DNA of 40,137 bases from Nannocystineae bacterium (lineage in GTDB: Bacteria; Myxococcota_A; Polyangia; Haliangiales; Haliangiaceae), in NCBI GenBank assembly GCA_007133195.1, contig SLNH01000025.1:1-40137 (forward strand), given 5' to 3'. Position numbers and translations under genes: made by a program. The notes beneath the pieces were generated by a model. It saw nothing but the letters and a program-made list of their open reading frames with translations, was not told the origin of the DNA and made no database searches. Positions 19,752-31,484 of the stretch are shown one piece after another (position 1 is the first letter of the stretch; each line of letters opens with the position of its first letter).

Positions 19752-20166
19752 CCCGCCCGCTACCCGAGCGAATTGGTCCGCGCAACGTTCGAGGTTGAGG
19801 TGCTCTAGCCACTGTCATACCTCCGTCTGGCCCGCGAGGTAGCGCGCCGGAAAAGGGCCGCGGTGAGCTGCCCGTCGCGCGCGTAGAGACAGCGACCAGG
19901 TCGCCGCGCCGCCCGCGAAAGCGCGCCTTCGACGTTCCGCACCGACGCGAATAAGCCTGCGGCACTTCTTCGCAGCCCGTGTCGCGCCCGCGGCCGCGCG
20001 CGGGAGCGAGCGCGGCCCGCTGCGCACGGCGCGGACAGCCGCGGAGCCGAGCGAGAAGCCGGATCGGCGGCTCCCAGCATCCGACCTGCGATCCCCGCCC
20101 ACACGACGAAGCGCCGAAATCGGCGCGGGATGAGGGACCGAACGCTGGTCACGGGATGGAGGCACG
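19752..20166. other. Intergenic stretch of 415 bp with no gene seen
   Basis: No frame here looks like a protein; the open frames are Arg/Ala-rich shadows. I saw no tRNA-like cloverleaf, no T-tract terminator and no clear promoter. It separates the nucleoside operon from a lipoprotein gene. Confidence 0.6.
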
Positions 20167-20694
20167 ATGTTTTCGCGGAGCGGGCGCTCTGACGTAGCCG
20201 CTTTTGTGCTGGGCGCTGTCACCTTCGCCAGTGCCTGCACGATCATCGGCACGCTCACGTTCACCGAAAAGAGCGAGGAAATCGAGATCGAAGGCGATGC
20301 CCTCTCCGACCAAGCCGGCGATCTGTTCCCGCCCGATGTGCCGATTATCATCAACCTCGAAAAGCACATAGACGAACAAGACGCCGGCGGCGCCCGCGCC
20401 CTGCACCTCATTTCGCTCGAAGTCCGCATGACAGAGAACACCGTCGAGCGCGACTTCGACTTCCTCGATACGGTGGAGGTGGACATCGCCGCCGAGGATC
20501 ACAGCCGCGAGCTTTTGGCGTGGCGCGACGATATTCCGGCGAGCGACAGCTTCACCATGTTCGTAGACGACCAGCTGGACTTAAAGCCCTACGTCGAATC
20601 CGGCGTCACGCTGCTTACCGAGGTCGAGGGCATCGCCCCCGCCGCGACGGCCCGTTTCAAAATCGTCGCTACATTCGAGGTCGAGGTGCTGTAA
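20167..20694 (+). CDS. Putative lipoprotein of unknown function
   Basis: A 175-residue protein I do not recognise. The N-terminus has Arg residues, a hydrophobic stretch (AAFVLGAVTFASAC) and a Cys at residue 24, a weak lipobox (ASAC). The mature part is acidic and beta-like, with repeated hydrophobic-alternating segments (PIIINLEKHID, FDFLDTVEVDI, FKIVATFEVEVL). It could be an outer-membrane or periplasmic lipoprotein. It is monocistronic. Reality as a gene is supported by its non-GC-rich residue composition (many I, E, D, T) compared with shadow frames. Confidence 0.7.
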   Translation: MFSRSGRSDVAAFVLGAVTFASACTIIGTLTFTEKSEEIEIEGDALSDQAGDLFPPDVPIIINLEKHIDEQDAGGARALHLISLEVRMTENTVERDFDFLDTVEVDIAAEDHSRELLAWRDDIPASDSFTMFVDDQLDLKPYVESGVTLLTEVEGIAPAATARFKIVATFEVEVL

Positions 20695-20999
20695 CCGCTC
20701 GCCGCGGGCGACCCGGCACGCAGACGACTGTCCTCGATCAGACGGCCGCAATCACACATCGCCCTCCCCTTGTCGAGGGCCGAAGTGCTTGGCTCGTCGA
20801 CGCCGCCGCATTAGCCGCTTTGCGGCTCAATCGCACTCTTTACCGCTTCGCCACGGTAGCGGCGGCGCCCAGTCCGCCCCGCGCCAGGAAGTTCGGCCAT
20901 TCTGCAGCTGATGCCGGCCTTCGTGTATCGAAGCCAGGAAGCGAAGCCGCGTAATGAAGTAAGTCACGAAACTAACCTCACGAAGGCAATTCGGTTGCA
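20695..20999. other. Intergenic region before the aminotransferase cluster
   Basis: 305 bp without a gene. It holds two hairpins (20761-20780 and 20813-20827). The last ~70 bp (about 20930-20999) are visibly richer in A/T than the surroundings, as expected of a promoter; TAATGA and ACTAAC are possible -10 boxes but neither is convincing. Confidence 0.5.
20813..20827 (+). terminator. Possible terminator hairpin after the lipoprotein gene
   Basis: AGCCGC-TTT-GCGGCT is a perfect 6-bp stem with a 3-nt loop, about 120 bp after the lipoprotein stop. A second 6-bp stem (GCCCTC/GAGGGC) sits at 20761-20780. No clean T-tract follows either. Confidence 0.35.
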
Positions 21000-22166
21000 A
21001 TGGTACCTGCGTCGATCCTACCCCTGCTCGAGCCGCTCGAGACGTTCGAGGCGATCCGCCGGCGAGCGGCGCGCCTCGGCGACCGCCTGTGCGATCTGTC
21101 TTATGCCAATCCCTATGACGGCGCACAGCAGGGCGCGCGCGCGGCGCTGCGCGACGCGCTCGACGAAAGCCGGCTTCTCAGCCTGCAGTACACTCCTTTT
21201 GGCGGGCACACCGTCGCCCGGCGGGTCGTGGCCGACGACCTGCGGCGCAGCCACGGATTACCGTTCGCACATCGCGATGTGATCCTCACCCCCGGCGCCA
21301 TGTCGGCGCTGCAGATCGCGCTTCTGGCCGCGCACGCCCGAGGCGGCGAGGTCGTGGTTCCCACGCCGTGCTGGCTTGACTACCCCATCTACGCCCGCCA
21401 CGCCGGCGCCACACCGGTCATGGTGCCGCCGGATGGCGACGTGAAGCTCGACCCCCACGCGGTCGCCGCGGCAATCACCGAGCGCACCCGCGCGATCGTG
21501 CTCTCGCACCCCTGTAATCCCACCGGAGAGCGGTATCGCGATTCCACTTTGACACAGCTCGCGGAGGTCATCTCGGCGCGACAAGAGGCCCTCGGCACCG
21601 CCATTACCCTGATCGCTGACGAGACCCATCGGGACTTCACCCCGCCGGGCACCTACCAGAGCCTCAGCCGGCGCTTTTCCCGCGCGGTGATCGTCTACTC
21701 CTTCGGGAAATACCACTTCCTGCAGGGCCAGCGGCTCGGCTATGCCGCGGTTTCGCCGAACCATCCCGAGCGCGACGAAGTCGGCGCCGAGCTCGTTCGC
21801 TGGACCCGGATCGCAGGCGTGGCCACGCCCACGGCGCTCATGCAAAGCGCAATCCCGCGGCTTGTCGAGCTCACATACGATGACGCCTGGCTCGCGCGGC
21901 GGCGCGCGTGGCTCGTAGCCCGACTGCGGAGCGCCGGCTACCGCGTGGCTGAAACCGACGCCACGCTGTTCGTCTACGTGAAAACGCCGCGAGGCTGGTC
22001 CGACTGGGCGTTCACTCGAAGCCTCGCCTCGCGCGGCGTCCTCGTCCTGCCGGCCCCAGTCTTCCACCACAGTGGCTGGTTTCGTGTGGCGCTTACGGCC
22101 TCGGAGCCGATGATCGAACGTGCCCTCGAGGTGTTCGCACAGGAGGTAACTCAGTGCCCCGCATAG
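21000..22166 (+). CDS. PLP-dependent aminotransferase, class I/II fold
   Basis: A 388-residue fold-type-I enzyme. The PLP lysine is K237 in SFGKYHFLQGQRLGY, which lines up exactly with the usual 'SxSK.....G.R.GY'. Other PLP contacts are N173 in HPCNPTG and D207 in IADETH. The tyrosine that normally follows in 'DExY' is replaced by histidine (H210), which is unusual. The C-terminal FRVALTASEPMIERALE carries the carboxylate-binding Arg. Substrate is unknown. It opens a tight cluster: its last 13 bp overlap the asparagine-synthase-like gene. It probably supplies or modifies an amino acid for the downstream carrier-protein module; that is inference. Confidence 0.88.
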   Translation: MVPASILPLLEPLETFEAIRRRAARLGDRLCDLSYANPYDGAQQGARAALRDALDESRLLSLQYTPFGGHTVARRVVADDLRRSHGLPFAHRDVILTPGAMSALQIALLAAHARGGEVVVPTPCWLDYPIYARHAGATPVMVPPDGDVKLDPHAVAAAITERTRAIVLSHPCNPTGERYRDSTLTQLAEVISARQEALGTAITLIADETHRDFTPPGTYQSLSRRFSRAVIVYSFGKYHFLQGQRLGYAAVSPNHPERDEVGAELVRWTRIAGVATPTALMQSAIPRLVELTYDDAWLARRRAWLVARLRSAGYRVAETDATLFVYVKTPRGWSDWAFTRSLASRGVLVLPAPVFHHSGWFRVALTASEPMIERALEVFAQEVTQCPA

Positions 22167-23473
22167 AGCTTTTCGGCGAGTCCGATCCGGTGCTCGCCTG
22201 GGACGGAACCGCGATCTACGGTGACGAAGCCGCGCTCGCCGGCGAGCCGCCGCCAGCGCGGCTCGAGGGTTCGGCTGCGGCCGCGCAGCCGCTCGCCAGC
22301 GGACAGGTGCGCCTGTTTCGCGATCGGCTCGGCCTCGGCAAGCTGTTCTGGGCGAAAAACGCGGGCGGCGATCTCGCCTTCGCCTCGCAGCCGCTAAAGC
22401 TCGTGCGCGCGGGGTATGACCTCGGCGACATCGCGGCGGCTCCGCGGGGTCGCGTCATCACGCTCGACGCGGACGGTAGCCTCGCCTCGGTGAGCGCCCT
22501 TAAACCGGCAGGGCCCACGCCGGCCGTGAGCGCGAGCGTCGCGCAGATCGGCGCCCACATCCGAGAGGCGCTCGATGCCTACCTGGCGGCGGTGGCGACT
22601 GCCTACCCCGACAGGCGCGCGTATCTCTGCCTGTCGGGCGGTCTCGACAGCTCTACGATCGCCGTCTTGGCGCGCAGGCATTTCTCGGCGCTCACCGCGG
22701 TGAGCTTCGACATCGCGGACGCCGGCCGCGCGCCGAGCGCGGACCGACTCGCGGCTGAGCGGCTTTGCGCCGACCTCGGCGTGCCCATGATCGAGGCCAA
22801 CGTCACGACCGAAGAGCTCATTTCGTACCTGGACACCGTGCTCGTCGCCGGCATCGACTGGCGCGATTTCAACGTCCACTGCGGCCTGGTCAACGCCGCC
22901 ATCGCGGACGCGATCGCGCAAAGCTCGTCCGAAGGCGATCCGCCCCCGATCGTCATCACCGGCGATCTCCCAAACGAGCTCCTCGTCGATTACCAGCCCG
23001 AGGTCTACAAGGGCGCCACCTACTACGGGCTGCCGCGGGTCGACGTCGCGAAGCTGCGTTCGGTGCTCGTCGACGGGCTCGACACGTGCCACCGCGAAGT
23101 CGGCGTGTTCGGCGCCTTCGGTCTCTCGGTGGCGCAGCCCTACGCCGCCTGCGTCGACGCCTATCTCTCGCTCCCAGCGTCGCTGCTCGCCGAGCAGGAC
23201 CGCAAGGACCACTTGGTCACGAACATCGTGGGCTCGGAGCTGCCCGCCTACATCTACGAGCGCCCCAAGCTGCGCGCTCAAATCGGAGACACCCACGACA
23301 AGGGAACGCTCGCCGCCTGTATCGATCGGGGTATCGACGGATCGTGGCTCCGGGGCCGGTTCTCGGCGCTTCACGGCGTGGGTGAGGAACGCGCGCTCGA
23401 CCGCTTCATACGTGCCGGGCGCTACCAAACGGCGATGCCAACAGGCACCACCACGACGGAGGAAGATCAATGA
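22154..23473 (+). CDS. Asparagine-synthase-like ATP-dependent amide ligase with degenerate glutaminase domain
   Basis: Residues 161-167 (SGGLDSS) are the PP-loop of the asparagine synthase/beta-lactam synthetase family, followed by a synthase-like domain (VITGDLPNELLVDY, FGLSVAQPYAACVDAYLSLPA). The N-terminal part (1-115) still resembles a class II glutaminase (VRLFRDRLGLGKLFWA, DLAFASQPLKLVRAG) but is about half length, and the protein starts MPRIELF with no Cys at position 2. Glutamine therefore probably cannot be its nitrogen source. Loss of this Cys is the hallmark of beta-lactam synthetase-type enzymes, which adenylate a carboxylate for intramolecular or other amide formation. It overlaps both neighbours. 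Product unknown. Confidence 0.85.
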   Translation: MPRIELFGESDPVLAWDGTAIYGDEAALAGEPPPARLEGSAAAAQPLASGQVRLFRDRLGLGKLFWAKNAGGDLAFASQPLKLVRAGYDLGDIAAAPRGRVITLDADGSLASVSALKPAGPTPAVSASVAQIGAHIREALDAYLAAVATAYPDRRAYLCLSGGLDSSTIAVLARRHFSALTAVSFDIADAGRAPSADRLAAERLCADLGVPMIEANVTTEELISYLDTVLVAGIDWRDFNVHCGLVNAAIADAIAQSSSEGDPPPIVITGDLPNELLVDYQPEVYKGATYYGLPRVDVAKLRSVLVDGLDTCHREVGVFGAFGLSVAQPYAACVDAYLSLPASLLAEQDRKDHLVTNIVGSELPAYIYERPKLRAQIGDTHDKGTLAACIDRGIDGSWLRGRFSALHGVGEERALDRFIRAGRYQTAMPTGTTTTEEDQ

Positions 23474-23757
23474 ACACGTCCAATATCGCGCTCAAGCTCG
23501 AGTCGTTTACTCGCAAATCGTTTCAGATCGCCGATGACGATCCGGACTTTAGCCGCTCCGTCCATCTCTTCGAAGAGGGCTACGTCGACTCCATCGGCGT
23601 GATCGAGATGCTCACCTTCATCACCGAGACCTTCGGCGTGCAAATCCCCGACGACGCGCTCCAGTCCGACGGCTTCGCCACCATCGACGGGATGGCGCAG
23701 GTGATCGCCGAGCTCATGGCGCCGGCGGACGCCAAAGCCGCCGTCACCGCCTCCTAG
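23470..23757 (+). CDS. Acyl/aminoacyl carrier protein
   Basis: A 95-residue carrier protein. The phosphopantetheine attachment site is S41 in LFEEGYVDSIGVIEML, followed by helix III-like sequence ETFGVQIPDDAL and a C-terminal AQVIAELM. It has the DltC/aminoacyl-carrier style 'EGYVDSIG' rather than the housekeeping AcpP 'LGADSLD'. It overlaps the asparagine-synthase-like gene by 4 bp (ATGA) and is 10 bp before the next gene. No ketosynthase, acyltransferase or AMP-ligase is adjacent, so loading must come from the neighbour or from a gene elsewhere. Confidence 0.92.
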   Translation: MNTSNIALKLESFTRKSFQIADDDPDFSRSVHLFEEGYVDSIGVIEMLTFITETFGVQIPDDALQSDGFATIDGMAQVIAELMAPADAKAAVTAS

Positions 23758-23767
23758 GAAGCCGAAC

Positions 23768-24517
23768 ATGAGGGAGCTGGAAAAGGGGCTGCGAGCCCTG
23801 ATCGCCCGGGCGGCGCGGGGCGAGGTTTCGGAAATCGCCGCCGTGCTGCGTGCAGGCCTTTGGAGCGAGCGGCATTGGATCGTGCTGCGCCGGGATCTGA
23901 CCGAGGCACTCCAGGTCACCAAGCCTCCGGTGCCGTTTTCGATCCGCCGCTATCGCCCCGCCGACGCCGACGTTCTGTTCGACGAAGGCTCGCGGGCCGA
24001 GCGGCGGGAGCGCGCGCGGCGCGAGCGCTGGATGCGCAGAGGGCTGGGCCGGTGCTACGTCGCGTCGCTCGCGGACGGCACCGCGACGTTCATGCAGTGG
24101 CTGTGCACCCCGGAGGAAAACGCGGCGCTCCGCGAAAGCCTCCCGTTCGTCAAGCCGGCTGCGCTGCCCGGCGGCGTCGTTCTGGAAGGGGCCTATACCC
24201 CTCCGCGGTTCCGGCGCCTACCGATCATGCCGGCGGCGATGGCCCAAATCGCCGAGGAGGGCCGCCAGCTCGGCGCGCGCTTCGCCGTGGTCTATGTCGA
24301 GGAGCAAAACGCGTCGATGATCAGAGCCGCCAAGTTGGCCGGGTTTACCCCCTGGCGCACCCGGCGCGTGCGGCGCCGGCTGTTTTTGTCGCTCTTCAGT
24401 GAATCGGCGCTTACCAGCACGGCCGACGAGCTGGCGACGGGCTCGATGCGGCCACGGAGATCGGCCGCGGCGCAAGGGGCGAAACGGGCCCGCGAGCGCG
24501 CATCTGCATCCGCGTAA
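23768..24517 (+). CDS. GNAT-like N-acyltransferase family protein
   Basis: A 249-residue protein. Residues ~55-210 look like a GNAT fold: FSIRRYRPADADVLF, a central beta strand VVLEGAYTPPRFRRLPIMPAAM where the acyl-donor loop would lie, and ARFAVVYVEEQNASMIRAAKLAGFTPW, the typical 'N..s...a.k.GF' ending. The classic Q/RxxGxG/A loop is not clearly present. The C-terminal ~35 residues are Arg/Ala-rich. Because it follows a carrier protein by 10 bp, it may use an acyl-carrier thioester as donor, as some GNAT-fold enzymes do; that is inference. Confidence 0.72.
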   Translation: MRELEKGLRALIARAARGEVSEIAAVLRAGLWSERHWIVLRRDLTEALQVTKPPVPFSIRRYRPADADVLFDEGSRAERRERARRERWMRRGLGRCYVASLADGTATFMQWLCTPEENAALRESLPFVKPAALPGGVVLEGAYTPPRFRRLPIMPAAMAQIAEEGRQLGARFAVVYVEEQNASMIRAAKLAGFTPWRTRRVRRRLFLSLFSESALTSTADELATGSMRPRRSAAAQGAKRARERASASA

Positions 24518-24591
24518 GCGCGCACCGGGCGACACGACCGGCCTTTGGCGTTATGCTCCCGCCCGGGCTCGATTCGGTCCCGCGAGTGTCC

Positions 24592-25485
24592 ATGGCGTCG
24601 CTACCACAAGCTTCCACCGTGTCAGCCACCGGGCTCGGTTACCGCGCGGCGTTCGCGGAGGCGCTGCTGTCGATGCACGCCCCGCCGGTGCCGTGGCTGG
24701 AGATCCACCCCGAAAACTACATCCGGCGGGGCGGGCGCTACGCCCGGCTGTTCGATCGCGCTGCCGAGCGATTCCCTCTCGTGCCCCACGGGCTCACGAC
24801 CTGCTTCGGCAATCCAGAGCCGCCGGGCGCCGCCTGGCTGCGCGACCTGCGCGCGCTGTGCGAGCGCATCGGGGCGCCGTGGTTTAGCGACCACCTGTGC
24901 TTTAGCGCCGCCGGCGGCGCTCACGCCCACGATCTTCTCCCGGTTCCGCGGACGACCCAGATGGCCCGGGAGGTGGCCGACCGCATCTGCCGCACGCGAG
25001 ACGCGCTGGGGATCCCGGTGGCCGTCGAAAACGTAAGCTTCTACGGACATCCCCCGGGCTCCGAAGGCGCCTCGGACGCAGCCTTCATCACCGAGGTCGT
25101 CGAGCGCGCTGACGCCCTGCTCCTCCTCGACGTCAACAACGTCGTGGTAAACGCACGAAACTTCGGCTACGACGCGGGCGCCTACGTAGACGACCTCCCC
25201 CTCGAGCGCGTGGTGCAAATCCACATCGCCGGCCACACGCGCCGGAGCGACGGGCTGAGAATCGATACCCACGATCGCCCCGTCGACGCAGAGACCACCG
25301 CGCTGCTCGGCCGCGTCCTCGCCAAAACGGGTCGCGTCCCGGTGCTGCTCGAACGCGACGGCCGCTACCCTCCGCTCGAGGCGCTGCTTTCCGAGCTGGC
25401 CGACATTCAGGCTGTCGTGGACCGAGCGCTCCATGTCGACCAGGCCGAAACGCCGCCCCGGACGGGCGCCGACGCCGCGCGCTGA
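24592..25485 (+). CDS. MNIO (DUF692) multinuclear non-heme iron enzyme, MbnB/BufB-like
   Basis: A 297-residue TIM-barrel protein with every landmark of the DUF692 family: GLGYR, VPHGL (H66), WFSDHLCFS (D100, H101), HDLLPVP, VAVENVS (E146), LLLDVNNVVVNARN (D180, N183), QIHIAGH (H211), DTHDRPV and a final LERDG. These residues hold two or three iron ions. Known members (MbnB, TglH, bufferin BufB) oxidatively modify cysteine or other residues of ribosomal peptides together with a partner protein. ATG 24592 is chosen; an in-frame ATG at 24553 adds 13 residues. TATGCT at 24552-24557 may be a -10 box. The partner gene follows after 4 bp. Confidence 0.95.
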   Translation: MASLPQASTVSATGLGYRAAFAEALLSMHAPPVPWLEIHPENYIRRGGRYARLFDRAAERFPLVPHGLTTCFGNPEPPGAAWLRDLRALCERIGAPWFSDHLCFSAAGGAHAHDLLPVPRTTQMAREVADRICRTRDALGIPVAVENVSFYGHPPGSEGASDAAFITEVVERADALLLLDVNNVVVNARNFGYDAGAYVDDLPLERVVQIHIAGHTRRSDGLRIDTHDRPVDAETTALLGRVLAKTGRVPVLLERDGRYPPLEALLSELADIQAVVDRALHVDQAETPPRTGADAAR

Positions 25486-25489
25486 CCCC

Positions 25490-26233
25490 ATGGCACCTGC
25501 ACAGGACTTTCGCGACCAGCTCGTGCGCTACTGCTTCGCCGAGGCGCCCGATCCCGGGCTACTCGCCGATCTCGGCAAAGACGCCGAAGCGTGGCAGCTA
25601 TACCGGCGCATGATCCGCAATCGCATCTTCCGCTTCATAGCCGGCGCCCTGCCGCGCTATCGCCGCGCCGTCGGCGGCGAGCGGTTCGATGGGGATCTGG
25701 CCCGGTGGCTCGAAAGTGGCGGCAGCGCCGAGCGCCAGATGTTCCTCCTCCCGCTCGCGCACGCTCGCTGGCTGCTTGCGCACGGGCCCCCCGAGGAGCC
25801 CGCGTGGGCGGGCGATCTGCTGCGTTTGGAGGCGGCGCGCATCGAGGTCCGAAACGCCGACGATGTCGAGCCGGGTCCCCTCCGCCCGTTCGACTTTCAG
25901 CTTCCCCTCGCGGTCTGCGAGCCGATTCGGTGTCTCCAACCGGCCTGGGACGTGACCCGCAAGGAGCCGCACAGGCTGCCGTCGCTCCGGGTGCTCATCG
26001 TGTGGCGCGGTCCGAAGCGCACCGCGCGCACCGCGTGGGCGGAGCCTTGGGTCGGCGAGTGGCTGTGCGACGAGCGGGCGGCGTCGTGGCCTTCCCACGA
26101 CCTGATCCGAAACATCTGGCAAGCGCGCGGCGTGGTCCCCACCACCGAACGGATCGAGCACGCCGCGAGCGTCCTGGGCCCGCTCGTGGAGGCCGGCGCC
26201 GTGGCCAGCCCCGCCGCGGCCAAGTCCCGGTAG
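25490..26233 (+). CDS. DUF2063-type partner protein of the MNIO enzyme (BufC/MbnC-like role)
   Basis: A 247-residue protein. Residues ~5-95 match the DUF2063 N-terminal domain: FRDQLVRYCF, then WQLYRRMIRNRIFRFIAGALPRYRRAVGGERFDGD in pieces of the expected order, then a long helical/strand domain (PFDFQLPLAVCEPIRCL, SLRVLIVWR). Such proteins bind the precursor peptide leader and present it to the DUF692 enzyme. ATG 25490 is 4 bp after the MNIO stop, so the two are co-translated. The first 19 codons of the longer frame from 25433 overlap the MNIO gene and are rejected. Confidence 0.88.
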   Translation: MAPAQDFRDQLVRYCFAEAPDPGLLADLGKDAEAWQLYRRMIRNRIFRFIAGALPRYRRAVGGERFDGDLARWLESGGSAERQMFLLPLAHARWLLAHGPPEEPAWAGDLLRLEAARIEVRNADDVEPGPLRPFDFQLPLAVCEPIRCLQPAWDVTRKEPHRLPSLRVLIVWRGPKRTARTAWAEPWVGEWLCDERAASWPSHDLIRNIWQARGVVPTTERIEHAASVLGPLVEAGAVASPAAAKSR

Positions 26234-26349
26234 CCGGGGCCGGGCCCAAAAACCAACAGAGCGCGCTGTCGTTCTATGCCGCTGCGCCTTCGACACGGCG
26301 GGAGACCCTGTGAGAGCCTCGCCGGGCACGAACATCTGGATGACCTGCG

Positions 26350-26375
26350 CCCCGAACGGCCCTCGCGGCCCGGGG
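26350..26375 (+). other. Hairpin in the spacer upstream of the acidic precursor gene
   Basis: CCCCG/CGGGG (5 bp) encloses GGCC/GGCC (4 bp) with a 3-nt bulge and the loop CTCGC, 43 nt before the next ATG. It could protect or process a separate precursor mRNA, or attenuate transcription between the enzyme genes and the precursor. There is no T-tract. Confidence 0.3.
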
Positions 26376-26418
26376 AGAAGCAGCGTCCCGCGCGACTCAC
26401 CATTGGAGGTCTACACGC

Positions 26419-26718
26419 ATGAAGACGCCCTCGACCAGTAAACGCCTGATGCTATCCGCCGCAACCGCCTTCGGCATGTCGATCGGTGCGGCCGGCGTCG
26501 CCGGGTGCGGCGGCGCCGAAGACGCCGCCGAAGAGCCCGAAGAGCCGGCCATCGAAGAGCAGGACTGCGCCGGTGAAGCCGATTGCAGCGCCGCAGCCGA
26601 CGACATCGACGCGGACTACGCCGACGAAGCCGACTGCAGCGGCGAAGCCGACGATGAGGCCGCCGCGGACGACGAGGAAGCCGACTGCGGCGCGGACTGC
26701 GCCGGCGCAGACGAGTAG
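26419..26718 (+). CDS. Acidic Cys-containing lipoprotein, probable MNIO-RiPP precursor
   Basis: 99 residues. The N-terminus has Lys/Arg, a hydrophobic stretch and a perfect lipobox, GVAGC (C30), so signal peptidase II processing and lipidation are predicted. The mature part is almost only Asp, Glu, Ala, Gly and Cys, with cysteines at 50, 56, 73, 90 and 94 in a recurring (A/Q)DC-x-GEAD-like context. This fits a substrate for the adjacent MNIO/DUF2063 pair, as bufferin precursors are small secreted Cys proteins beside the same enzyme types. A strong Shine-Dalgarno (GGAGGT, 8 bp before ATG) suggests high expression. The role as precursor is inferred from position and composition; metal binding is a reasonable guess. 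Confidence 0.8.
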   Translation: MKTPSTSKRLMLSAATAFGMSIGAAGVAGCGGAEDAAEEPEEPAIEEQDCAGEADCSAAADDIDADYADEADCSGEADDEAAADDEEADCGADCAGADE

Positions 26719-26979
26719 TCCGCTCGGCCCGAGCCCTGGCTCCTATTCGGGGCCCAGAGCCTGCGGGCATCTATTCGAACAGTCGTGGCGCTCTCGCCGG
26801 GGTATTCGCCGGGATTCGCGGCCGAACACCTCGGCGAGCCGTCCGGCCCGCCCGTACCGCCCTCGCGCTCGCTCGCTCGTCGCCGCCGGCTTCACGACGG
26901 CAGCCGCATCGCCGGGCTGCGCAGCGATTGGCCGGCGACGCCCCTCCCCTCGTGCTCACGAGGCGGACGCAGGCAACCG

Positions 26980-27270
26980 CTATCGCGCGCGCAGGTCCGC
27001 CTCGGCGCGGAGCCAGTCCTCGAGATCGTGCCCGTGCTCGTAACCGCGGGCTGCGAACAGCTCGTACGCGCGCGCGGCGATCTCCTCGCTGCTCGGCGCC
27101 CGAACCTCCGTCTTGGCGCCGGCGCGGGCGCGCTTGGGCGCGGTCGTCGAGCTTCGCGCGGTTTTGCGCGAGCGCGCGGGGGGCGTGCCATTCACACCCG
27201 CCGGCTTCGCCGCGGTCTTGGGGGTCCCGGTCTCGCTCGAGGTCGTCTTCTTGGTCGGTCGCTTGGCCAT
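26980..27270 (-). CDS. DUF2934-domain protein with a basic Lys/Ala-rich N-terminus
   Basis: 96 residues. The C-terminal ~38 residues (SSEEIAARAYELFAARGY, then HDLEDWLRAEADL) are the DUF2934 motif, a short two-helix element of unknown function common in soil proteobacteria. The first ~58 residues are Lys/Thr/Ala/Pro-rich, like histone H1-type tails, and may bind nucleic acid. ATG 27270 is preceded by AGGAGAA on the minus strand, a strong ribosome binding site; the longer frame to 27357 is rejected. It points towards the precursor gene and is transcribed convergently with it. Confidence 0.85.
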   Translation of the reverse strand: MAKRPTKKTTSSETGTPKTAAKPAGVNGTPPARSRKTARSSTTAPKRARAGAKTEVRAPSSEEIAARAYELFAARGYEHGHDLEDWLRAEADLRAR

Positions 27271-27535
27271 GGAGTTTCTCCTGGTGTCCGGCGCCGCCGG
27301 CTTCGGGCCAGCGCGCCGAGACACTCGACCGATATACGCATCCCGGCGGCCTGTCAAAAAAACCGACGAGCAGCCCTGCCATCCTCACTCGCCGACGCCT
27401 TGGCCACCTTGTGGAGAGTGCCGGGCTGGTCGGCGTAGCGCCGTCGCACGTGGCTGCGCGGCCTGCGCTGCATGCACGCCCGCCCCAGACGCGCCCGACC
27501 ACTCGATCCGATCATCGAAGGGATGAGACAGTGGC

Positions 27536-28930
27536 ATGATTCGACTGCACGAAGTCACCACGGTGGAGCGCGAAGTGGGCGAGTGCTTCCGCTACCTGGC
27601 CGATTTCTCCACGGCGGAGCAGTGGGACCCCGGCGTGTACCGAGCCGAAAAACGGACGCCAGGCCCGCCGGCGCCGGGGACCAAGTTCGCGCTTACGCTA
27701 AGCGCCGGGGGGCGGCGCATTCCGATGACCTACCAGCTCGAGGAGCTTGTACCGAACGAGCTCATCGCGCTCACGGGTGACGGGGAAGGCTTCAGCGCCC
27801 GTGACCGAATCACCCTCGAATCGCCCTTCCCGGGCCGCACCCGCATCGCGTATGAAGCGGTGTTGGCGTTCTCTGGGGCGGCGGGACGCGCCGAGCCGCT
27901 TTTTCGCCCCTGGCTCAAAGGCGTGGGGCGCAAGGCGGTGGAGGGCATGACGCGCGCGCTCACCTTGGGGACCGCGCCCTCGCGCGGGCCCTTGGACAAT
28001 CTCGGCCATCGGCTCGTTTTGCCCGCCGCGTGGTCCTTTACCGAGCGCGGCTATCTCGCGATGCCAGACAAAGGGCTGAGCGAGTTCATCGATGATCGAA
28101 TCTGGGTGATCACAGGCCCCACGAGCGGCCTCGGATTGGCCACCGGCTGCTTGCTGGCCCGATTGGGCGCACGGCTTTTGCTCGTGGGGCGAGGTGGTGA
28201 TCGCCTGCGAGAGGCTGCGGCTACGATCGATGCGTTCAGCGGCTGCGGACGCGAGCGCATCCAGTGCTTCGAAGCCGAGCTTTCGCTCGCGCGCGAGTGT
28301 CGCCGCGTGGCCGCCGAAATCGCCGCGGCGCAGCCGGCCATCGACGGGCTGGTGAATAACGCCGGCGCCTTGTTCGCCGAGCGCGGGGAGACCGAAGAAG
28401 GGCACGAGCGGGCCCTGGCCATCAATCTGGTGGCGCCGTGGGTGCTCACCCGCGAGCTTTTGCCTGCGATGCGACGGCGCGGCGCGCGAGTCATAAACGT
28501 CGTGAGCGGCGGCATGTATCTTCAGCCGCTGCGCCTGGACGACATGCAGTTTCGGGTGGGCCGCTACGACGGCTCCGTCGCCTATGCCCGCGCCAAGCGG
28601 GCGCTCGTCGCCGTGACGGAGCACTGGGCCGAGACGACCCCGGACGTGGATTTTTACAGCATGCATCCGGGCTGGGCGGCCACCCCGGGCGTCGCGCGCT
28701 CGCTTCCGGCGTTTGACCGCCGGATGCGAAGATGGCTTCGCGACAGCCGCATGGGCGCGGACACCATCGCCTGGCTCGCCACGACCGCGGCCCTGGCGGG
28801 CCACAGCGGAGAGTTTTGGTTTGATCGCAAGCCCCGCCCCACGGCGGTGGTCCCCGGGACGGCCGTGGACGCGCGCCAGCGTGCCGAGCTCGTAACGTGG
28901 CTCGAAGCTGCCCAGGCTCGGGCGTCATGA
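27536..28930 (+). CDS. Fusion of an SRPBCC (START-like) domain and a short-chain dehydrogenase/reductase
   Basis: A 464-residue two-domain protein. Residues 1-150 look like an SRPBCC hydrophobic-ligand domain (VEREVGECFRYLADFSTAEQW, RITLESPFPGRTRIAYEAVL). Residues ~187-460 are a classical SDR: Rossmann loop TGPTSGLG (193-200), VNNAGALFAERG, a VVSGGM serine and the catalytic YARAK. The SDR half resembles DHRS12/retinol-dehydrogenase-like members. A ligand-binding domain fused to an NAD(P)-dependent oxidoreductase suggests a lipid-like or polyketide-like substrate. It is alone on its transcript; the bioA gene converges on it. Confidence 0.9.
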   Translation: MIRLHEVTTVEREVGECFRYLADFSTAEQWDPGVYRAEKRTPGPPAPGTKFALTLSAGGRRIPMTYQLEELVPNELIALTGDGEGFSARDRITLESPFPGRTRIAYEAVLAFSGAAGRAEPLFRPWLKGVGRKAVEGMTRALTLGTAPSRGPLDNLGHRLVLPAAWSFTERGYLAMPDKGLSEFIDDRIWVITGPTSGLGLATGCLLARLGARLLLVGRGGDRLREAAATIDAFSGCGRERIQCFEAELSLARECRRVAAEIAAAQPAIDGLVNNAGALFAERGETEEGHERALAINLVAPWVLTRELLPAMRRRGARVINVVSGGMYLQPLRLDDMQFRVGRYDGSVAYARAKRALVAVTEHWAETTPDVDFYSMHPGWAATPGVARSLPAFDRRMRRWLRDSRMGADTIAWLATTAALAGHSGEFWFDRKPRPTAVVPGTAVDARQRAELVTWLEAAQARAS

Positions 28931-28949
28931 TCCGATCGGGCGAGCCAGG

Positions 28950-30233
28950 TTAGGTGTGGTCGCGAACGACCTGGGTGATCGCCCCCGTGATGCGCGAGAG
29001 ATCACCTTGCTCGATCACGAACGGCGGCATCGTGTAGACGAGGCGGCCGAACGGCCGAATCCATACGCCCCGGTCCACGAACGCGGGCTGCACGACGTCC
29101 ATGTCGACCGGATCGCAAAGCTCCACCACGCCGATGCCCCCGAGCGCCCGCACGTCTTTGACCTGAGCGAGCTCGCGGCACGGGGCGAGCTCGCGGACGA
29201 GCTGCTCCTCGATGGCGGCGACGCGCGCCTGCCAGTCCGACTGAAGCAGCAGATCGATGCTGGCGAGCGAGACCGCGGCGGCCAGCGGGTTGGCCATGAA
29301 GGTGGGCCCGTGCATGAACAGGCCGGGTGCGCTGTCGCGAATGCCTGCGGCCACCTCTCCGGTCGCGAGCGTCGCCGCCGCGGTCATCATGCCGCCGGTG
29401 AGCGCCTTGCCCAGGCACATGATGTCCGGGGCGATGCCCGCGTGCTCGCAGCCGAAAAGCCGGCCCGTTCGGCCGAAGCCGGTGGCGATCTCGTCGAGGA
29501 TGAGGAGCGCGCCGTGCTCGTCGCAAAGCTCGCGCACCCGCTCGAGGTAACGCGGCGAGTAAAACCGCATGCCCCCGGCGCCCTGGACCACGGGCTCGAG
29601 GATCACCGCCGCGATTTCACCGCCGCGCTGTTCGAGGCGGCCTTTGAGCTCGCCGATGTGTGCCTCGTCCCACGGCTCGCCGAAGCTCGGCGACGGCGGC
29701 GGGACGAAGTGATGCTCGGGCAAAGCGCCGCGAAACAGGGTGTGCATGCCGTTTACGGGGTCGCAGGTGGCCATCGCGCCGAACGTGTCGCCGTGGTAGC
29801 CGCCGCGCACGGTCAAGAGCGACTGCTTTTTCGGCCTGCCGCGCCCCTGCTGATACTGAAGGGCCATTTTGATGGCCACCTCCACCGACACCGAACCCGA
29901 GTCGCACAAGAACACGCGCTCCAGCGGATCGGGGGCGAGGGAGGCCAGCTTCTCGGACAGCTCCACGGCCGGCCGGTGGGTGAGGCCGCCGAACATCACG
30001 TGGGCCATGTCTTTGGCCTGGCGCTCGATCGCCTCGACGAGCGCCGGGTGCCCGTAGCCGTGAATCGCCGCCCACCACGACGACATGCCGTCTACGAGCT
30101 CGCGCCCGTCCTCGAGGTAAAGGCGGGTGCCCTCGGCGCGGCGCACCGGGTAGATCGGGCCGACCGCCGGGGAGGCGTTATAGGGATGCCAAACGCTGCG
30201 CCTGTCTCGGGCGAGGAGATCGCGTGCGGTCAT
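28950..30233 (-). CDS. bioA: Adenosylmethionine-8-amino-7-oxononanoate aminotransferase
   Basis: Transfers the amino group of S-adenosylmethionine to KAPA, giving DAPA in biotin synthesis. The 427-residue protein has the BioA start (DRRSVWHPYN), the SSWWAAIHGYGHPALVEA block, FCDSGSVSVEVAIKMALQYQ, YHGDTFGAM, LLILDEIATGFGRTG and the PLP lysine in CLGKALTGGMM. The SAM-specific Tyr/Trp-rich region (SSWWAAIHG) separates it from generic class III aminotransferases. Other bio genes are not in the window. It is divergent from the Rieske gene with a 171-bp shared control region. Confidence 0.94.
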   Translation of the reverse strand: MTARDLLARDRRSVWHPYNASPAVGPIYPVRRAEGTRLYLEDGRELVDGMSSWWAAIHGYGHPALVEAIERQAKDMAHVMFGGLTHRPAVELSEKLASLAPDPLERVFLCDSGSVSVEVAIKMALQYQQGRGRPKKQSLLTVRGGYHGDTFGAMATCDPVNGMHTLFRGALPEHHFVPPPSPSFGEPWDEAHIGELKGRLEQRGGEIAAVILEPVVQGAGGMRFYSPRYLERVRELCDEHGALLILDEIATGFGRTGRLFGCEHAGIAPDIMCLGKALTGGMMTAAATLATGEVAAGIRDSAPGLFMHGPTFMANPLAAAVSLASIDLLLQSDWQARVAAIEEQLVRELAPCRELAQVKDVRALGGIGVVELCDPVDMDVVQPAFVDRGVWIRPFGRLVYTMPPFVIEQGDLSRITGAITQVVRDHT

Positions 30234-30242
30234 CGGCGAGCG

Positions 30243-30248
30243 ACCCTA
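30243..30248 (-). promoter_or_regulatory. Candidate -10 box of bioA
   Basis: TAGGGT on the minus strand begins 15 nt before the bioA ATG. It would give a very short or no leader. Confidence 0.3.
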
Positions 30249-30392
30249 CCACGGCGCCTCCCGCACCCTTACGAAGGCGCCTCGCCTGCCCTGGGCCTGA
30301 GCCCCGCCTGCGACTCGGACTCCCGGCGCTCGAGCCGCCGCCGGGTCTCCCGGACCGAAGCGCCGCGGCGCGACGTTCCGTCCGATTCGAGC

Positions 30393-30398
30393 TACGCT
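30393..30398 (+). promoter_or_regulatory. Candidate -10 box of the Rieske gene (leaderless)
   Basis: TACGCT begins 12 nt before the GTG at 30405; the same TACGCT precedes the HIT gene at 13 nt. Confidence 0.4.
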
Positions 30399-30404
30399 GT
30401 CCTG

Positions 30405-31484
30405 GTGACCCACGAGCCCCGCCTCACGCCCCCCCTCGCCAAGGGACACATCTCCGTCGCGCGCCTCGCCGACTACTGGTACGTGGCGCTCCAGTCCAAC
30501 GAGCTCGGCCCGCGCCGCCCGGTCCAGCGGACGGTGCTCGGCACCCCCTTGGCGCTGTTTCGCGACGGCCAAGGGCGCCCCGCGGCGCTTTTGGACCGCT
30601 GCCCGCACCGAAACGTGCCGCTTTCGCTCGGCCGCATCCACGAAGACGGCCATCTCGAGTGCCGCTACCACGGTTGGCGATTCGACACGAGCGGCGCCTG
30701 CCGGGCCATTCCCGGCCTGTGCGACGGCGCCCCCGGCCGCGCACACAACGCAACCGCTTACCCGGTGCGCGAACGCGACGGTCTCGTCTGGGTCTATATG
30801 AACCCCGATGCGAAAGAGGTGCGCGGCGAGCCGTTTTCGTTCGAGGAGCGGCCCGGATACACCACCGTGCGCGGCACCATCGACATGGAGGCCTCCCTCC
30901 ACGCCACCCTCGAAAACATCCTCGACGTTCCCCACACCGCCTTCCTACACCGGGGCCTGTTCCGCAAGGAGGCGACCACCGAGATCGAGGCGGAGGTGAG
31001 GCGCGGCCCCGACCGGGTGGAGGCCGAGTTCATCGGCGAACCCCGTCCGCCCGGCATCGCCGCGCGCCTTTTGTCCCCGTCGGGCGGCACAGTGGAGCAC
31101 ACCGATCGGTTCATCCTCCCGTCGATCGCGCAGGTGGAGTATCGGCTCGGCGAGGAAAACCACTTTCTCATCACCCAAACCCTCACCCCCATCGGCGACC
31201 ACCATACGCGGATCTTTGCCGACATCTCGTTCCGGCTGCGCATCCCGGGTTTCGTCCTGCGCCCGCTCCTAACCCCCGTGGCGTGGCACATCCTCCGCCA
31301 GGACGCCGCCATCCTCCGCGCCCAGACGGAAAACGTCAGGCGTTTCGGCGGCGAGCAGTTCGCCCACACCTCCATCGACCTGCTGGGCCGGCCGATCTGG
31401 CGGCTTCTGCGCGAGGCCGAGCGCGGCGAGCTGCGTTCCCTAGACGGCGGCACGGAGGCCCAGCGCGTTCGCATGACTGTTTGA
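30405..31484 (+). CDS. Rieske [2Fe-2S] non-heme iron oxygenase, large subunit
   Basis: A 359-residue ring-hydroxylating-type oxygenase. The Rieske motif is C66-x-H68 (CPHRN) and C86-x2-H89 (CRYHGW). The mononuclear iron site is ENILDVPHTAFLH, with D174, H177 and H182 in the expected spacing. Related enzymes (vanillate demethylase, choline and phytochemical monooxygenases) act as a single alpha subunit with a separate reductase; none is adjacent. Substrate unknown. The frame is open far upstream, but that part is antisense to bioA; GTG 30405, with a TACGCT box 12 nt before it, gives a normal N-terminus (AKGHISVARLADYWYV). Confidence 0.93.
   Translation: MTHEPRLTPPLAKGHISVARLADYWYVALQSNELGPRRPVQRTVLGTPLALFRDGQGRPAALLDRCPHRNVPLSLGRIHEDGHLECRYHGWRFDTSGACRAIPGLCDGAPGRAHNATAYPVRERDGLVWVYMNPDAKEVRGEPFSFEERPGYTTVRGTIDMEASLHATLENILDVPHTAFLHRGLFRKEATTEIEAEVRRGPDRVEAEFIGEPRPPGIAARLLSPSGGTVEHTDRFILPSIAQVEYRLGEENHFLITQTLTPIGDHHTRIFADISFRLRIPGFVLRPLLTPVAWHILRQDAAILRAQTENVRRFGGEQFAHTSIDLLGRPIWRLLREAERGELRSLDGGTEAQRVRMTV

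Follow-up and report, generated by a model that had tools for sequence, protein, structure and literature searches.

The window, i.e., the whole 40,137-nucleotide stretch of Nannocystineae bacterium DNA that was analysed, carries an ORF of 99 aa that is very probably the substrate of the neighbouring iron enzyme, an MNIO (DUF692). The ORF was assigned, with a probability of about two in three, as the precursor of a lipidated 5-thiooxazole metallophore of the captophorin/bufferin kind, in a variant with an acidic residue before each core Cys (position -1). Judged by the sequences compared, the frame of its Cys sites is already known, and Asp(-1) at every site appears so far unique.

Precursor ORF and gene neighbourhood

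The initial annotation had given the ORF limits, its start, its length, and Cys residues at 30, 50, 56, 73, 90, and 94, and all of these proved exact. The features of the gene, all on the forward strand, are as follows.

26405-26410, +, Shine-Dalgarno-like GGAGGT, 8 nt 5' of the precursor ATG (from the sequence)
26419-26718, +, putative lipoprotein RiPP precursor, 99 aa, with five ExDC-type core Cys (from the sequence)
26419-26508, +, predicted type II (lipoprotein) signal peptide with lipobox VAGC, C30 at 26506-26508 (sequence only)
26566-26568, +, core Cys50, EQDC-A (context EQDCAG)
26584-26586, +, core Cys56, EADC-S (context EADCSA)
26635-26637, +, core Cys73, EADC-SG (context EADCSG)
26686-26688, +, core Cys90, EADC-GA (context EADCGA)
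26698-26700, +, core Cys94, GADC-AG (context GADCAG)
26575-26693, +, 51-bp (17-residue) tandem repeat with EADC, 2.3 copies, 76% match

The coding nature of the ORF is supported by the GC content per codon position (0.74/0.55/0.82) and by the GGAGGT site. A lipobox signal peptide, which marks the DAG-RiPPs (RiPP-lipoproteins), is present by sequence, and the V-A-G-C is preceded by a hydrophobic N-terminus bearing K/R. In E. coli, Gly after the lipidated Cys would direct a lipoprotein to the outer membrane. The ORF had no match in Pfam, and none in NCBIfam at E<=10.

The mature region of 69 aa (A20 D16 E14 G6 C5, one Tyr) is 81% A/D/G/E and 43% acidic, without any K, R, or H. The core Cys are spaced by 5, 16, 16, and 3 residues, and the EADC sites of C56, C73, and C90 recur at exactly 17 residues with the 51-bp DNA repeat beneath. 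The core Cys had been described as nearly always preceded by Asp; they always are (5/5). The x-GEAD said to follow often is found after C50 and C73, not after the other core Cys. In 20,000 composition-preserving shuffles of the mature region, five DC pairs arose in 0.04%, three D-C-x-G in 0.005%, and four A-D-C in 0.01%, the motifs having been picked after the data were seen. A chance origin of the motifs is unlikely for this composition.

The expected DUF692 neighbourhood was confirmed, as an intact MNIO gene and a PME-type partner gene adjoin the ORF.

24553-25485, +, MNIO enzyme (DUF692, PF05114), 280 bits, E 1.7e-83
25357-25365, +, D269-G270-R271 of the MNIO, i.e., the FonB D249 equivalent, Gly at the Phe250 site, and an unusual Arg
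25490-26233 (start may be 25433), +, MNIO partner protein (DUF2063/RRE type, PME)

No second MNIO was found in the genome. In an alignment of 194 MNIOs, the His, Asp, Glu, and Asn positions with at least 95% conservation are all retained by this enzyme, so the MNIO with conserved metal and catalytic residues that defines MNIO-PME1 RiPP clusters is found at this locus. On DUF2063, the partner reaches 22 bits and stays below the Pfam cut-off of 27.2. It matches the partner ORF of a related locus at 5e-20 by phmmer, and that ORF itself passes the DUF2063 cut-off. The four best PDB matches of its AlphaFold model (pLDDT 79.7) are 3DEE (NGO1945), two TglHI entries, and MbnC. Sequence and model together indicate the DUF2063/RRE partner of MNIO-PME1 clusters.

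The same-strand order is Asn-synthase-like gene, acyl carrier protein, 249-aa ORF, MNIO, partner, a 185-bp gap, and precursor. At 21000-24517, genes for a PLP aminotransferase, the Asn-synthase-like protein, the acyl carrier protein, and the 249-aa protein (no Pfam match) run tightly into the MNIO gene with a gap of about 35 bp. They may form a small biosynthetic operon that shares a transcript with the MNIO block. The Asn-synthase, ACP, and 249-aa ORF had no match at any other MNIO locus retrieved. No metal-related gene adjoins the precursor, the upstream genes being biosynthetic, and no sigma-70-like promoter was found in the 185-bp gap. Within 20000-31000, no further ORF combines a lipobox with repeated Cys sites.

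The gene order at the window is B-C-A, with the precursor behind the partner gene, instead of the A-B-C order of MNIO-PME1 clusters. In bufferin clusters the bufABC order is described as strictly conserved, and the candidate precursors of that study are genes preceding MNIO genes (PMC12452194). In an automatic two-way scan of 114 MNIO loci of the class, 95 of them with at least 1500 bp downstream, a motif-bearing precursor lay upstream in 81, downstream in 0, and on neither side in 33. Looser looks gave upstream precursors in 4 of 26 loci lacking a first pick and, among 14 of the remaining loci that were inspected, in 6. The B-C-A order is unusual on the count of 81 upstream against 0 downstream.

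Related precursors in the class and in known systems

Of 289 class genomes, 166 gave MNIO matches at E<=1e-50. In the family with the nearest enzymes (50-52% identical), 22 of 33 genomes gave a match at 1e-80. Directly upstream of related MNIOs lie small lipoprotein ORFs, e.g., one ending EASCGEGSCGGAKEGEASCGEGSCGGSK. A set of 86 distinct MNIO-linked precursors with 348 core Cys was compiled; 83 of the 86 have a lipobox, and their repeats read E-[AG]-S-C-[GSA]. The set leaves out L111, L112, L113, and L207 (junk or unrelated ORFs) and the Buf2-like L115, L116, L118, and L120, and includes ten precursors entered by hand where the automatic scan had picked the wrong ORF or none. All 86 lie upstream of the MNIO gene, but the underlying scan favoured upstream ORFs.

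Among the 348 core Cys, the residue at -1 is Ser in 244, Gly in 44, Thr in 26, Ala in 12, and Asn in 11, with rarer Lys (6), His (3), Pro (1), and Gln (1). Asp occurs in none. At -3, Glu is found in 185 of 348 (4 of 5 in the window). At -2, Gly (183) and Ala (122) make up 305 of 348, and the window has Ala in 4 of 5. At +1, Gly (254), Ser (56), and Ala (21) account for 331 of 348, with Pro in 13; all five window sites carry such a residue (A, S, S, G, A). By sequence, the E-A-D-C-[ASG] of the window is the class frame with Ser(-1) changed to Asp, a -1 residue unique in the sample.

These counts bear on the motif proposed in the initial annotation. An invariance of D-C-x-G-E/A among the homologues is not supported, since the precursors of the closest MNIOs read E-[AG]-S-C-[GSA], and a new recognition motif is not upheld by 0 of 348 core Cys with Asp(-1) in 86 class precursors. 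The stated difference from EGKCG-type motifs survives in part: the frame E(-3)-[AG](-2)-x(-1)-C-[small](+1) is of the EGKCG type, and the residue at -1 is new. No homologue that lost its Cys while keeping the enzyme genes was seen in this sampling from MNIO genes. None lacking an MNIO neighbour was seen either, although a sample started at MNIO genes could hardly reveal such a case. Among 46 further uncurated candidates (L017-L100, some of L017-L030 being of the same class as the window), Asp(-1) was found in 4 of 276 Cys, every one in a Buf2-like context and without an acidic residue at -3.

The window precursor shares with the class precursors a lipobox, a core that in the class is often acidic and rich in Ala, Gly, Glu, and Asp, E(-3), a small +1 residue, and an MNIO from their enzyme clade. 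Its DCAGEADC is spaced like the SCGGEASC of L139. It differs in Asp(-1) at 5/5 sites, where the class has mostly Ser and never Asp, and in its place downstream of the partner gene, whereas class precursors were found upstream of the MNIO gene. It is the most acidic of the class set, with 43% against 34% in the next. Many class precursors end in SCG-x-G-[ST]-C (C-x4-C), whereas the window precursor ends in DCGADC (C-x3-C). When a profile was made from 20 relatives with the window left out, it did not recover the precursor ORF from its own genome at E<=0.01. In hhalign, the window precursor aligned to relatives with 85% probability, mostly over the signal peptide and first Cys pair. As the precursor ORF is of low complexity, its kinship to the class family rests on context and frame.

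Further copies were sought. A DNA pattern for EADCxGEAD hit 2 of 317 class genomes, i.e., the window and G021, where the pattern falls by chance in a different frame of an ORF rich in Lys and Ala. ORFs with at least four DC in all loci retrieved were the window's own copies only. A weak precursor match in G001 covered the signal peptide region, with no Cys repeat and no MNIO within 9 kb, and was rejected. As a second precursor in the window's genome, acidic lipoprotein profile matches on contigs C214 and C298 were discarded for want of core Cys. The Cys-rich ORF on C288 (G000; L233 1551-2442) was likewise set aside. It encodes a secreted protein, very rich in Cys (ExxC), that resembles MYXO-CTERM surface proteins and has a MYXO-CTERM-like tail.

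The nearest MNIO from the window's own family shares 42% identity with the window enzyme, while the DnaB encoded on the window contig is about 70-76% identical to that of most genomes in the family. The DnaB identity fits the contig to its bin and speaks against mis-binning. From this pair of values, the MNIO block probably arrived by horizontal transfer, or was retained while its kin lost it.

Other precursor types were met at MNIO loci. In the window's own family, L115, L020, and L023 have Buf2-like precursors (VDCxGxNxCKG) with other MNIOs, a type that differs from the window. In L104 (8099-8512, G048), an ORF adjoining the MNIO gene carries about ten AGCPGTT heptads, i.e., another, Cys-Pro type of Cys-repeat precursor. 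About 1 kb upstream of the L109 MNIO gene (G018:C25) lies an ORF that combines a Cys-rich core with a leader of bacteriocin-like type (LTVKQLSEVSGAG); the search gave no lipoprotein precursor for that MNIO. In the Melainabacteria-type loci L032-L055, KEGSCKGKEGSCKGKE repeats with Ser(-1) and Lys(+1) adjoin RR...ERDQ-type MNIOs.

Of the known systems, the captophorins/Buf_EGKCG-oxazolin (FonA, HvfA, NedA) are likewise secreted precursors with an MNIO, a DUF2063/RRE partner, and repeated E-x-x-C-[small], and NedA is also described as a lipoprotein (PMC12636315). They have Lys at -1 where the window has Asp in a mature region without basic residues. The window further differs in having mostly one Cys per 17-residue repeat and its precursor gene after the partner gene. 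The repeated EGKCG motif that defines Buf_EGKCG/oxazolin is absent, the window reading EADC[AGS]; a Ser-type relative scored 18.6 on NF050137, against a cut-off of 19.5. The bufferins Buf1 (DUF2282) and Buf2 are also Sec-exported copper binders modified by an MNIO and a partner, but the window ORF has no DUF2282 match and, unlike Buf2 with 6 or 12 conserved Cys and Cys-Lys, has five core Cys and no Lys in its mature region. Some Buf2-like rows do have Asp-Cys (VDC, NDC), though E(-3) is missing from them.

The uncharacterised CxxxxC family of Antoine et al. (PMC12452194) and lipoprotein Cluster X (PMC12636315) are, as described there, also MNIO-linked with a signal peptide. The window lacks the C-x4-C described for the former. 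The C-x4-C endings of many class precursors suggest that some of them are members of the CxxxxC family, and by the main-text description in PMC12452194 the class family may overlap with it. No Asp-Cys or EASCG precursor family is named in the titles and abstract openings of the MNIO, bufferin, and captophorin papers that the searches listed, and EASCG and EGSCG have zero occurrences in the main text of the MNIO papers searched for them.

The MNIO enzyme

In a tree of 51 MNIOs, the window enzyme falls inside a clade (support 100/96) of 38 rows, all from lipoprotein-linked loci of the class, and in a subclade (88/82) of 21 rows, of which 16 have E-[AG]-S-C precursors. A quick tree of 108 rows agrees on this placement. 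The end branch of the window MNIO is 1.72, against a median of 0.63, and leaves its exact place unsure; fast evolution of the enzyme is the best reading.

According to PMC13097082, Asp249 of FonB is proposed as the catalytic base and Phe250 contacts the -1 and +1 residues, and a model places Glu(-3) of the substrate between Arg15 and Arg16. The window MNIO has R31, A32, D269, and G270, then R271. The Arg16 and Phe250 positions are likewise not conserved across 114 class MNIOs; the Phe250 site is Gly in 11 of them, and the R271 column is Arg or Lys in 5, the window included in both counts. Two of the latter, L201 and L206, which are one lineage, adjoin precursors among the five most acidic of the 86, with Ser(-1). 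With two independent cases, a link between Arg/Lys in this column and acidic precursors is a hint, not a result. The MNIOs of L201 and L206 read ERDKK, against ERD[NQ]N in most, and very acidic EASC precursors adjoin them (DADADADAEASC in L201).

The same report (PMC13097082) describes FonBC as tolerating Ala, Arg, and Thr at -1 and as badly hindered by Phe and Glu. At +1, Gly or Ala only were accepted among the doubles tested, and the 5-mer HNDCK, with Asp before Cys, was left unprocessed. As FonBC handles Glu(-1) badly, adaptation of the window enzyme to Asp(-1) is predicted.

Compensation of charge between core and enzyme was rejected. The net charge of the MNIO rises with that of the core (Spearman 0.40, n=89), where compensation would call for the opposite trend, and the relation between partner and core charge was not significant (Spearman 0.22, n=64).

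Proposed product, alternatives, and meaning

We infer a substrate role for the ORF, its descent from the class family, and the following chemistry, lipidation, metal, and role. The precursor would descend from the class-wide acidic E-[AG]-S-C lipoproteins by a change of Ser(-1) to Asp at every site. In the cytoplasm, the DUF2063/RRE-fold partner would present it to the MNIO with the signal peptide as leader; HvfBC is described as preferring a precursor with its signal peptide attached (PMC13419390). The MNIO would oxidise the five Cys of the E-[AQ]-D-C-[AGS] sites by four electrons each, the likeliest product being 5-thiooxazoles that incorporate the carbonyl of the preceding Asp. After Sec export, the product would be lipidated on C30 and retained in the envelope. 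Modified and lipidated forms are reported for NedA, a lipidated EGKCG precursor, and for DybA (PMC12636315). Held in the envelope, the product would bind a soft metal, with copper as the default guess because EGKCG products and bufferins bind copper. Asp(-1) would set a carboxylate beside every ring, and any effect on the choice of metal is conjecture.

Three other explanations were weighed. An ordinary acidic envelope lipoprotein, placed after the MNIO operon by chance while the true substrate lies elsewhere or was lost, would fit the gap and the reversed gene order. The genome also has other acidic lipoproteins, e.g., the unrelated pair on C214 and C298, but these proteins lack core Cys, whereas all five Cys of the precursor lie in one site frame, common to the putative substrates of sister enzymes. 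With one MNIO in the genome and the precursor standing alone near it as a lipobox ORF with repeated Cys sites, this explanation is distinctly unlikely. Decay of the system, with a drifting enzyme and a precursor rebuilt by slippage of the 51-bp acidic repeat, is highly improbable. It could account for the long MNIO branch, the tandem repeat, and the occurrence in a single genome; yet the enzyme keeps all its highly conserved residues, and the five sites are intact with small +1 residues and normal coding signs.

The ORF could also be a true substrate in which Asp(-1) serves another chemistry or metal. Either a carboxylate arm on the ring would provide mixed O/N/S ligands and so suit a harder ion, or the MNIO would make a different product from Asp-Cys. 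All five sites changed together, the enzyme branch is long, and the Gly at the Phe250 site is followed by Arg, in a column where Arg or Lys is rare and accompanies very acidic precursors in L201 and L206. However, that single lineage keeps Ser(-1), and the Gly is shared with other class MNIOs; this explanation appears unlikely. The acidic variant of a 5-thiooxazole metallophore precursor is the preferred reading. A further reading, unlikely as well, is a metallophore class with every thiooxazole on Asp-Cys and thus a carboxylate arm on each ring, in which the enzyme (by the Arg near its catalytic Asp) and the precursor changed together, moving from Cu(I) towards harder or mixed-ligand ions as an envelope-anchored polyanion.

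The residue at -1 donates its carbonyl to the ring, and the permitted -1 residues were probed on FonBC, where Glu failed, according to PMC13097082. Asp at all five sites beside the Ser clade offers a natural pair for enzyme and substrate swaps on -1 specificity, and the same pair could show whether the -1 residue tunes the choice of metal. A survey limited to ORFs that precede the MNIO gene can overlook precursors behind the partner gene, as placed here. For the class as a whole, the sequences indicate a large family of lipoprotein precursors.
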